From: Haloplanus vescus | GTDB taxonomy: Archaea > Halobacteriota > Halobacteria > Halobacteriales > Haloferacaceae | Assembly: GCF_900107665.1 (NCBI RefSeq) | Contig: NZ_FNQT01000001.1 | Coordinates: forward strand, 1,280,398-1,344,397 | Direction of reading: 5' to 3' | DNA: 64,000 nt | Shown: piece by piece, positions 7,375-9,552 of the stretch | Numbering within the stretch: the stretch's first letter is position 1 | Layout: each line of letters begins with the position of its first letter | Notes under the pieces: model-generated | Seen by the model: only the letters and a program-made list of their open reading frames with translations | Databases searched by the model: none | Told to the model about the DNA's origin: nothing | Position numbers and translations under genes: made by a program

Positions 7375-7485
7375 CGGGCCGGGAGGGAGTTGAACCCCCG
7401 ACCGTCTGGTGACTTCCGCAACCGCCCGGGGAATCGGGCAGACGCGTTAAAAGCCAGACGCTCTGCCTGACTGAGCTACCGGCCC
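7375..7485 (-). tRNA. tRNA-Lys (anticodon UUU) with intron
   Basis: The minus strand folds as a cloverleaf. Acceptor stem GGGCCGG (7485-7479) pairs with CCGGCCC (7382-7376) and the discriminator is G. The D-arm contains AGCTCAGTCAGGCAGAGC. The anticodon stem is TCTGG/CCAGA with loop C-T-TTT-A/A. The T-arm contains GGTTCAACTCC. CCA is not encoded. The acceptor, D-arm and anticodon sequence match haloarchaeal tRNA-Lys(UUU) as I remember it. A 37-nt insert interrupts the loop after position 37. Confidence 0.93.
7411..7447 (-). other. tRNA-Lys intron (37 nt) with canonical bulge-helix-bulge
   Basis: The intron lies between tRNA positions 37 and 38, the usual archaeal site. On the RNA strand, CUUU (32-35) pairs with GAAG near the intron's 3' end, giving exactly four pairs (one G-U). 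These are flanked by three-base bulges UAA and UCA on opposite strands. Cutting after the second base of each bulge regenerates a normal seven-base loop. Inside the intron CGC/GCG and GCCCG/CGGGC extend the hairpin. This is the structure recognised by the archaeal splicing endonuclease EndA. Confidence 0.88.
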
Positions 7486-7532: not shown

Positions 7533-7967
7533 CTACGCTCGCGACGAAATCCACTCCCCGACGCCGAAATCGTCCGCCCAGTTGATGTTCGGTGACAGTT
7601 TGTCCGGGTCCGTGACTCGAAGTGCCATACTCGTACTCGGTGCGTCCGAAATCGGCACCACGTAGATGTGGTCGGTCGCCGGCGCGTAGACTGCGAACGC
7701 CTCGATCTGTCCCTCGTATCCCTCTTTGTCGATAGCGCGGGTTCGCGTTCCGGTACTCCTCGTTTCGAACTGGATGCGGCCGTTTTCGAGACGCCCCGTC
7801 TTGACCTGTATCCGGTAGAACGAGGCGCCGACCTCGACGACGAGGTCGTATCGCTGGTTATCGCCGAACGGTCGAAGGACTGGACAGCCTCGGCGTAGGA
7901 ACTCGTGGAGTACGGCGGCCTCACTGCGCTCTCCACGCTCTTTCGGATGCGTGGCGTCGTCGGTCAC
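7533..7967 (-). CDS. PD-(D/E)XK nuclease-fold protein
   Basis: A 144-residue protein with the restriction-endonuclease fold signature. An early Glu (about E16) lies in the first helix. It is followed by YDLVVEVGASFYRIQVKTGR, where D41 and the Q54-V-K56 triad match the D...(E/Q)xK core. This is the pattern of the small 'PDDEXK_5' group related to homing-type and group I intron endonucleases. The C-terminus has a strand-rich YVVPIS segment. It lies 47 bases from the intron-containing tRNA-Lys on the same strand. Its cellular target is unknown, and no methylase or integrase is adjacent. Confidence 0.75.
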   Translation of the reverse strand: MTDDATHPKERGERSEAAVLHEFLRRGCPVLRPFGDNQRYDLVVEVGASFYRIQVKTGRLENGRIQFETRSTGTRTRAIDKEGYEGQIEAFAVYAPATDHIYVVPISDAPSTSMALRVTDPDKLSPNINWADDFGVGEWISSRA

Positions 7968-8008: not shown

Positions 8009-8680
8009 TCACAAATCCAGATACTCGTCCAGCGCCTCCGCCACCAACTCGTCGGGCGTGACGTTCTCGACGGACGCCCGGCGTCGGAGCTCGATGTACT
8101 GGTCGGGCGGGAGCGTCAACGCGATGCGGCCGAGGGTGAGCCCCCGGTCGTCGAGGGCGTCCTCGACGGACGTGCCGTTGCTCACCTCGCTGGCGAGGCG
8201 GCGGATTTCGCGGACTGTGAGTTCGTGTTCGAGCGTCGCCCACGCGAGCGCGTAGCGGTCGTCGCCCGAGACGCGAGCGATGTGTTTCGCCGCGGTGGGG
8301 GCAATGGTACCCCGGGCGACGTGCCGGCGAATCGCCTGTGGCAGGTCGTGGACGCGCGCCCACTTCCGGATGAAGGAGACGGAGACGTCGCCACCGGCAC
8401 GCTCTGCGGCGGCTTTGTAGGAGCCAACGCCCCGAACCAATGCGGCACAGGCGGCGGCGCCGCGGAGCATGTAGACGTGGTCCTCGGAGCCGACGGTGTT
8501 CTCGGCGAACGACCGGACGGTGTCGGCGGCGAGTTGTACGCTCTCGGGGTCGTCAGGGTCGAATCCGACGGCGTCGGTAGCCCGTTCCCCAGTGACCGAC
8601 GGGTCGGCGCGAACGACAGGTTCGCCGACCGGGGATCGGCGGTCGGCTGGACGGCCGGACGCGTCGGGGTCCTCACTCAT
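8009..8680 (-). CDS. ParB/KorB-like helix-turn-helix protein with RHH-like C-terminus
   Basis: A 223-residue protein from the ATG at 8680. The first 40 residues are a disordered acidic tail. The middle (about 95-170) resembles the KorB/ParB DNA-binding helices: VSVSFIRKWARVHDLPQAIRRHV, then GTIAPTAAKHIARV. The last 45 residues (LTLPPDQYIELRRRASVENVTPDELVAEALDEYL) look like a ribbon-helix-helix dimerisation segment. It lacks the N-terminal ParB CTPase motif, so it is not a full partition protein. A chromosomal DNA-binding or regulatory role is inferred. Confidence 0.65.
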   Translation of the reverse strand: MSEDPDASGRPADRRSPVGEPVVRADPSVTGERATDAVGFDPDDPESVQLAADTVRSFAENTVGSEDHVYMLRGAAACAALVRGVGSYKAAAERAGGDVSVSFIRKWARVHDLPQAIRRHVARGTIAPTAAKHIARVSGDDRYALAWATLEHELTVREIRRLASEVSNGTSVEDALDDRGLTLGRIALTLPPDQYIELRRRASVENVTPDELVAEALDEYLDL

Positions 8681-8739
8681 CGTACCACCCGTTCGGCAGG
8701 GATAGTGAAAAGTCCCCCGTGGTCGGCGACGGACGGCCA

Positions 8740-9552
8740 TCACTCACGTCGCACCGACACCGACACCCGGTCGCCAACGGCGAAGTCGTGGTCCGGGCAG
8801 ACGAGTTTCGTCCCGAGTTCGTCGCGGGCGAGAAAGAGCGAGAGTCCCGTGATGGGAGTCCCGTTCGCCGCGACGGTGACGGCGTCCCACGTCACGCCCC
8901 CGCCGCTGGCGACGCCGACGCGTTCGCCGGCCACCGTGACCGGACCGTCGGTTGCGGGCAGGACGCCCCCGCCGCCGTAGTGGGGACAGCCACCGTCCAG
9001 AGCGACTCCCGATGCGGCGGCGAGTCCGGCCCACGTGCCGGGGTCGGGGTGTGCAGGCGCATCGAGGAGGGCGTACGTCTCGCCCGTCTCGCGGACGACG
9101 CCGGTGCCGTCCCAGTCGGCGGCGTGGACGTCGACTGGCGTCTCTATCGGGAGCGACCCAGCGGCGCGGTAGGGGTTCGCGTCCGGCGGGCGAAAGCCGA
9201 GATGAACGTGGTTGTCGACCCACGGCGCGAAAAAGCCCGAGCGGACGAGTTCGCCGAGCGAGTCGCCGACGTCGACGTGGTCACCGGCACGGACTGCGGG
9301 GTCGACGTGGAGAATCCGGGCGACGTAGTCGCCGGTATCGAGCAGAATCAGGTGGTCCTCGGCGGCGGCGTAGGGGCGCGTGGGCGCGCCGACGGTCCGG
9401 GTGTCGAGCACCTCGCCTGCGACGGGAGAGAGGCCCCGGTTCGAATCGGGGTAGAGGTCGATGGCACAGCCCTCGTCGTGGCCGGGGTAGGGGGAGTTGT
9501 AGCGGGAGAACCGCGAGTAGTGGGCGAGCGTCGAGGCCGGAACCGTGACCAT
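8740..9552 (-). CDS. M23 (LytM)-like metallopeptidase-fold protein
   Basis: A 270-residue protein whose first 130 residues follow the M23 peptidase pattern. H25 and D32 lie in GHDEGCAIDLYP, then comes GEVLDTRTV, a second-half His (H82), the lipoyl-like turn VRAGDHVDVGDSLGEL, and the H115-x-H117 pair in DNHVHLGF. The C-terminal part is beta-rich. There is no obvious signal peptide, and haloarchaea lack peptidoglycan, so the substrate is not the classical one. It could also be a non-catalytic carrier-like fold, although all expected zinc ligands appear present. Confidence 0.65.
   Translation of the reverse strand: MVTVPASTLAHYSRFSRYNSPYPGHDEGCAIDLYPDSNRGLSPVAGEVLDTRTVGAPTRPYAAAEDHLILLDTGDYVARILHVDPAVRAGDHVDVGDSLGELVRSGFFAPWVDNHVHLGFRPPDANPYRAAGSLPIETPVDVHAADWDGTGVVRETGETYALLDAPAHPDPGTWAGLAAASGVALDGGCPHYGGGGVLPATDGPVTVAGERVGVASGGGVTWDAVTVAANGTPITGLSLFLARDELGTKLVCPDHDFAVGDRVSVSVRRE

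Follow-up and report, generated by a model that had tools for sequence, protein, structure and literature searches.

The tRNA-Lys(UUU) Locus of Haloplanus vescus

We analyzed a stretch of 64,000 nucleotides of the Haloplanus vescus genome (the window; contig NZ_FNQT01000001.1, positions 1,280,398 to 1,344,397 of the forward strand), in which a tRNA-Lys(UUU) gene interrupted by a short intron is adjoined by an open reading frame (ORF) for a putative endonuclease (Table 1). The tRNA gene scored 56.6 bits against the Rfam model in cmscan and was called by ARAGORN once introns were allowed, while no call was obtained without that option. Both programs place it exactly where a previous sequence-only reading of the window had proposed a tRNA-Lys gene with a 37-nt insert at position 37/38.

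Table 1. Features at the tRNA-Lys(UUU) locus, in window coordinates.
Feature	Coordinates	Strand	Basis
tRNA-Lys(UUU) gene with intron	7375..7485 (5' end 7485, 3' end 7375)	minus	Rfam RF00005; ARAGORN Lys(ttt)
Bulge-helix-bulge intron, 37 nt, at 37/38, ACGCGTCTGCCCGATTCCCCGGGCGGTTGCGGAAGTC	7411..7447	minus	sequence reading, fold, covariation over 42 homologues
PDDEXK_5 ORF, 144 aa, GTG start, I-Ssp6803I-like endonuclease	7533..7967	minus	PF11645, 2OST, AlphaFold2/Foldseek
DUF7119/ParB-HTH gene, upstream neighbor, locus marker, not part of the system	8009..8743	minus	PF23433, 1e-74

The intron (ACGCGUCUGCCCGAUUCCCCGGGCGGUUGCGGAAGUC, ACGCG...GAAGUC) is inserted between A37 and A38, after which the anticodon stem continues with its 3' half. 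As read from the sequence, C32U33U34U35 pairs with GAAG in a central helix of four pairs, the last of them U-G, which is flanked by a 5' bulge (U36 A37^A) and a 3' bulge (UC^A38) of 3 nt each. The intron-bearing RNA has a folding energy of -61.5 kcal/mol (z -4.4), and none of 200 shuffled sequences folded equally well. The 37/38 site, the two 3-nt bulges and the 4-bp central helix are those of a canonical bulge-helix-bulge (BHB) motif; the earlier reading had recognized it from the bulges UAA and UCA and the four pairs between them, and the fold and the comparison of 42 introns described below agree. A box C/D guide RNA of the tRNA-Trp type within the intron was considered and rejected, as the Rfam search over the window matched tRNA only and the intron measures 37 nt. 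We conclude that the tRNA-Lys intron is genuine and belongs to the usual archaeal type.

The assembly (2.78 Mb, 99.8% complete) contains 42 tRNA-like matches, including a single introned Lys(UUU) gene and a single uninterrupted Lys(CUU) gene. A second intact Lys(UUU) gene, which the sequence-only reading had named as a possibility to be checked, was looked for genome-wide with ARAGORN and not found. Since the sole Lys(UUU) gene carries the intron, splicing is required if a lysine tRNA with the UUU anticodon is made. The genes of the splicing endonuclease EndA (PF01974, two domains within a single frame of 363 aa) and of the ligase RtcB (E = 4e-161) are both present in the genome, and the tRNA is presumably spliced in vivo. 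Two other tRNAs of this genome are introned, Arg(UCU) and a CAU tRNA (L022 and L030), with introns of ~30 nt each, and no PDDEXK_5 gene was found near either of them in this genome. One further tRNA-like match without an ARAGORN call (L042, G000:C2:370844-370951, minus strand; 108 nt, 40.9 bits) has a long middle and an imperfect T stem and is perhaps a degenerate tRNA or one that is interrupted.

A Predicted I-Ssp6803I-Type Endonuclease Adjoins the tRNA

The PDDEXK_5 ORF, which was overlooked in the sequence-only reading, sits between the DUF7119 gene and tRNA-Lys, is co-directional with both and ends 47 nt before the tRNA. It matches its family profile at E = 6e-37, and the only PDB sequence match of the encoded protein is 2OST, the structure of I-Ssp6803I (phmmer, E = 2.3e-9). 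When the AlphaFold2 model (pLDDT, the predicted local distance difference test score, of 86) was searched with Foldseek, four 2OST chains ranked first (E = 1e-10, TM-score 0.78), followed by Hjc resolvases (5e-4). Residues D41, Q54 and K56 align at equal spacing with D37, Q50 and K52 of 2OST; among 25 homologues, D41 and Q54 are invariant and K56 is nearly so. The family profile, the modeled fold and the D...QxK residues identify the ORF as a predicted endonuclease of the I-Ssp6803I type. The ratios of nonsynonymous to synonymous substitutions (dN/dS) of the nuclease coding sequences range from 0.05 to 0.19, indicating purifying selection, and a search for plasmid carriage of the nuclease gave no match.

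Distribution and Conservation of the Intron

To determine how widespread the intron is, we searched 392 haloarchaeal genomes, all of one order and each representing a different species, with patterns for introned and uninterrupted Lys(UUU) genes. The introned form was found in 38 genomes representing 13 genera and 5 families, after 10 of the 48 matches to its pattern had been discarded as uninterrupted genes with a chance match downstream, while 328 genomes carry the uninterrupted form and none of the 392 carries both. At least eight genera mix the two states. The patterns left 26 genomes unclassified, in a few of which a looser pattern revealed 5' halves of the uninterrupted type. In eight nearly complete genomes (G059, G103, G172, G058, G312, G060, G009 and G011) the 5' half of Lys(UUU) was not found; some of these have Lys(CUU) only, and a divergent gene, another intron position or an assembly gap may be involved.

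Carriers include Haloferax denitrificans, H. sulfurifontis, H. marisrubri and H. profundi as well as members of Halorussus, Halorientalis, Halosimplex, Halobaculum and Halogranum. Outside the haloarchaea, too, tRNA-Lys(UUU) is interrupted at this position in genomes of Methanoperedens, Methanocellales, Asgard, DPANN and Thermoproteota. The sequence-only reading had called the intron unusual and perhaps lineage-specific. It does fall outside the familiar haloarchaeal set, given that introns of Haloferax volcanii are reported in Trp, Met and Gln tRNAs only (PMC7714728), and it belongs to a minority of the order, but its occurrence in five families and in other archaeal phyla shows that it is not private to this lineage.

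In families f1 and f4 the DUF7119 gene adjoins tRNA-Lys both where the intron is present and where it is absent, and in f5 it does so in introned genomes; it also lies near tRNA-Lys in part of family f17, at the edge of the flank examined. Because this gene is found upstream in both states, the tRNA-Lys locus is orthologous across introned and uninterrupted genomes. The 42 distinct haloarchaeal introns at 37/38 are 31-42 nt long and share a common layout, in which 95% of the cells for intron positions 2-7 are paired to the strand lying 5' of RRRG. When the same pairing was slid by 1-2 nt, only 33-40% of cells remained paired, which excludes chance as the origin of this helix. Three pair types at intron position 3 and five at position 4 represent compensatory changes, indicating from the alignment that the intron structure is kept by selection.

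In two uninterrupted Haloferax genomes (G239 and G311), the upstream flanks are ~93% identical to those of introned relatives and exactly the intron is missing. This flank identity makes precise intron loss likely in both, and an alignment in which again exactly the intron is absent suggests the same for G379. The order-wide pattern fits gain by homing followed by loss, and equally an old presence with loss.

Partial copies of the tRNA-Lys 3' end were observed ~100-125 nt downstream of the gene at several loci (L233, L234, L237, L239, L205, L359 and L361) and resemble integration-site remnants. These repeats were considered as a cassette border and rejected: genomes with the intron have them just as those without it do, and none lies in the window. 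Being independent of the intron and missing from the window, they are not part of the system.

Linkage of the Nuclease to the Introned tRNA-Lys

The 392 genomes were then searched for homologues of the 144-aa protein, with matches listed down to about E = 3e-21. The 12 best matches (56-99% identity) all belong to introned genomes and all adjoin the introned tRNA-Lys. A 13th copy, in G260 (L246), also adjoins an introned tRNA-Lys and is frameshifted, its two hidden Markov model (HMM) pieces lying in different frames. Of the 38 introned genomes, 13 thus possess the Lys subfamily of the nuclease, in every case no more than 0.9 kb from tRNA-Lys and on the same strand. The subfamily was not seen beside an uninterrupted tRNA-Lys at any of 32 loci examined, 20 of which included flanks of up to 3 kb in both directions. 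Among the matches listed, the contrast of 13/38 introned with 0/328 uninterrupted genomes is highly significant (Fisher P = 2e-14), and it persists when stratified within the five genera having the nuclease (P = 8e-5); both values disregard shared ancestry within genera, which counts against the interpretation developed below. The nuclease gene therefore lies outside but near the intron and, among these matches, accompanies introned and not intronless alleles, as expected for homing in trans.

Four states of the locus were seen: intron with nuclease, intron with a frameshifted nuclease (G260), intron alone, and neither. The third is exemplified by H. denitrificans, which has kept the intron without the nuclease gene, whereas the closely related H. 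sulfurifontis has that gene at the corresponding site. Such states are those that a homing cycle would pass through. The nearest relative of the Lys clade (51% identity), in G011, was set aside as uninformative, as no tRNA was found within the 19 kb examined and no Lys(UUU) was detected in that genome.

Relatives of the Nuclease Adjoin Other tRNAs

The association with tRNA genes extends beyond the Lys subfamily of the nuclease. For 88 of the 90 best haloarchaeal homologues a tRNA gene lies within 1.5 kb, in all 88 cases on the same strand, while roughly 5% would be expected by chance, as estimated from ~47 tRNAs in 3.5 Mb. The protein tree splits according to the adjoining tRNA into Lys, Asn, Asp and Pro clades and an Arg and Gly pair. 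All 13 tRNAs adjoining the Lys clade are introned, as are those of the Arg and Gly pair. In the Asn clade, 19 of 27 adjoining tRNA-Asn genes are introned compared with 69 of the 392 genomes overall (P = 3e-10); among the other eight loci, the anticodon arm is altered at three (at two of which a neighboring tRNA is introned as well) and the nuclease gene contains a stop codon at one.

Several observations accompany this picture. Many of the 69 genomes with tRNA-Asn(GUU) introns have a PDDEXK_5 gene between tRNA-Asn and a CAU tRNA (L247-L313). At the Asp-clade loci (L251, L270, L271, L276, L284, L285, L288, L293, L294, L299 and L315), a tandem pair of uninterrupted tRNA-Asp(GUC) genes flanks the nuclease gene, which lies between the two. 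The tRNA-Pro(UGG) genes adjoining PDDEXK_5 (L252, L253, L260-L262, L264, L279-L281, L286, L302, L307 and L316-L319) have unusually variable anticodon arms, as if recoded against a nuclease. At L266, L249, L273, L256 and L274, PDDEXK_5 adjoins introned tRNA-Arg(UCU), introned Gly(CCC) (as called by ARAGORN) and introned CAU-type tRNAs, one of which ARAGORN labels Thr. The family is also present in haloviruses, and in viral tRNA arrays from IMG/VR (L363-L402) it lies within 1.5 kb of a tRNA at 36 of 40 loci, where the adjoining tRNA is very often tRNA-Asn.

Explanations for the Linkage of Intron and Nuclease

The linkage to the nuclease is the best explanation we can offer for the patchy distribution of the intron. 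We consider it probable that a normally spliced archaeal tRNA intron was spread by collaborative (trans) homing, with the endonuclease encoded outside the intron; the tRNA-Lys intron is thus probably a mobile element. EndA would cut both bulges and RtcB would join the exons to give mature tRNA-Lys(UUU). The PD-(D/E)XK protein would recognize the uninterrupted tRNA-Lys gene, probably at the anticodon arm (TCTGGCTTTTAACCAGA). This arm is near-palindromic, which suits a symmetric enzyme, and the intron insertion point lies inside it. An uninterrupted allele meeting donor DNA would be cut, and repair from the donor would copy in the intron together with the adjacent nuclease gene by co-conversion. 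Insertion of the intron would destroy the target site by splitting it, so that the own allele is protected. After fixation, the nuclease gene would decay and disappear, and precise loss of the intron could follow.

We also lean towards a wider form of this proposal, in which haloarchaea possess a set of PD-(D/E)XK homing endonucleases specific for tRNA identity (Lys, Asn, Asp, Pro and Arg/Gly) that adjoin their targets, those of the Lys and Asn clades driving trans homing of protein-spliced BHB introns.

Several findings speak against homing of the intron. The nuclease gene is missing from the flanks examined in 25 of the 38 introned genomes, and it was not found near the non-haloarchaeal Lys introns in the flanks examined there. 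A sign of horizontal spread may lie in the patchy occurrence of intron and nuclease, in five genera from three families, but branch supports inside the Lys clade are too weak to show it, and the nuclease tree gives no clear indication of transfer from one family to another. Moreover, four genes of the Asn clade adjoin a normal-arm, uninterrupted tRNA-Asn, which the homing model does not explain, and the Asp and Pro clades adjoin uninterrupted tRNAs. Intron and nuclease are therefore not always coupled.

In the main rival explanation, the nuclease spreads alone and the intron serves only as protection. A free-standing nuclease would home by itself near tRNAs, as in phage tRNA arrays, and the intron would not be carried along but would be an independent or selected immunity change; it would block cutting by the nuclease or by integrating elements, and the nuclease would then be tolerated beside it. 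The occurrence of the family in viral tRNA arrays and haloviruses agrees with such a course of events, as do the Asp- and Pro-linked copies beside uninterrupted tRNAs and the very variable anticodon arms of the adjoining tRNA-Pro genes, and protection of tRNA genes by introns has been proposed by Randau and Soll (as cited in PMC4090602 and PMC4033280). However, both structure and locus show the Lys introns of the different families to be homologous and not of independent origin, and the nuclease gene is near enough to tRNA-Lys for co-conversion. Immunity alone also gives no reason why no Lys-clade copy was found beside a recoded, uninterrupted Lys arm. We regard this rival as unlikely. Still more doubtful is an ordinary tRNA intron inherited vertically and lost repeatedly, with the nuclease as an unrelated passenger, even though the homologous introns at an orthologous locus, their mixed presence and absence within eight genera, the precise absence in Haloferax and the introned genomes without nuclease would all suit it.

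Comparison With Known Systems

No report of homing of archaeal tRNA introns was found in the literature searched, in which unpublished or subscription work may be missed, and the novelty of such homing is provisional. Two reviews of these introns treat their transposition and their possible role against integration without mentioning homing (PMC4033280, PMC4090602).

The gain of archaeal tRNA introns and their very patchy occurrence pose a long-standing question, which the nuclease linkage makes testable in Haloferax. If true, the wider form of our proposal would give archaeal tRNA introns their first mechanism of homing and account for their patchiness. A single endonuclease family would then also connect archaeal BHB introns with the tRNA introns of bacteria and the tRNA arrays of phages.

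LAGLIDADG endonucleases are known from archaeal rRNA introns (mentioned in PMC3943268). They resemble the present case in being introns of structural RNAs tied to homing endonucleases, but differ in that the endonuclease is intron-encoded, belongs to the LAGLIDADG family and is found in rRNA genes. The Trp, Met and Gln introns of H. volcanii share the BHB motif and, presumably, removal by the splicing endonuclease with the Lys intron, whereas they lie in other tRNAs, span 31-103 nt, include a box C/D guide in Trp and have no reported homing (PMC7714728). Short circular RNAs are under-represented in circRNA-seq, according to the same source. In Thermoproteales, tRNA intron transposition has been described (Fujishima et al., 2010, cited in PMC4033280), which is evidence of past movement of archaeal tRNA introns; these moves took place in another order and between different tRNAs, with no nuclease identified in that review.

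Collaborative homing with a free-standing endonuclease is known from cyanophage psbA (Zeng, Bonocora and Shub, 2009, cited in the review PMC3984707). There, too, the endonuclease gene lies outside and near the intron-bearing gene, and the enzyme is thought to cut the intronless insertion site. The haloarchaeal case differs in nuclease family, host and intron type, and its cleavage step is one that we infer. I-Ssp6803I is a homing endonuclease whose gene belongs to a group I intron of the tRNA-fMet gene in the cyanobacterium Synechocystis, and its specificity is reported to be for the anticodon region (Bonocora and Shub, 2001, cited in PMC1995217). The haloarchaeal protein shares with it (2OST) the nuclease family, the fold, the D/Q/K residues and the link to a tRNA-gene intron. 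However, the gene of I-Ssp6803I resides inside a self-splicing group I intron, while the haloarchaeal gene lies outside a 37-nt BHB intron that would be spliced by proteins. The tRNA-Lys BHB intron itself is of a known kind; what appears new is its link to an I-Ssp6803I-like nuclease encoded outside it.
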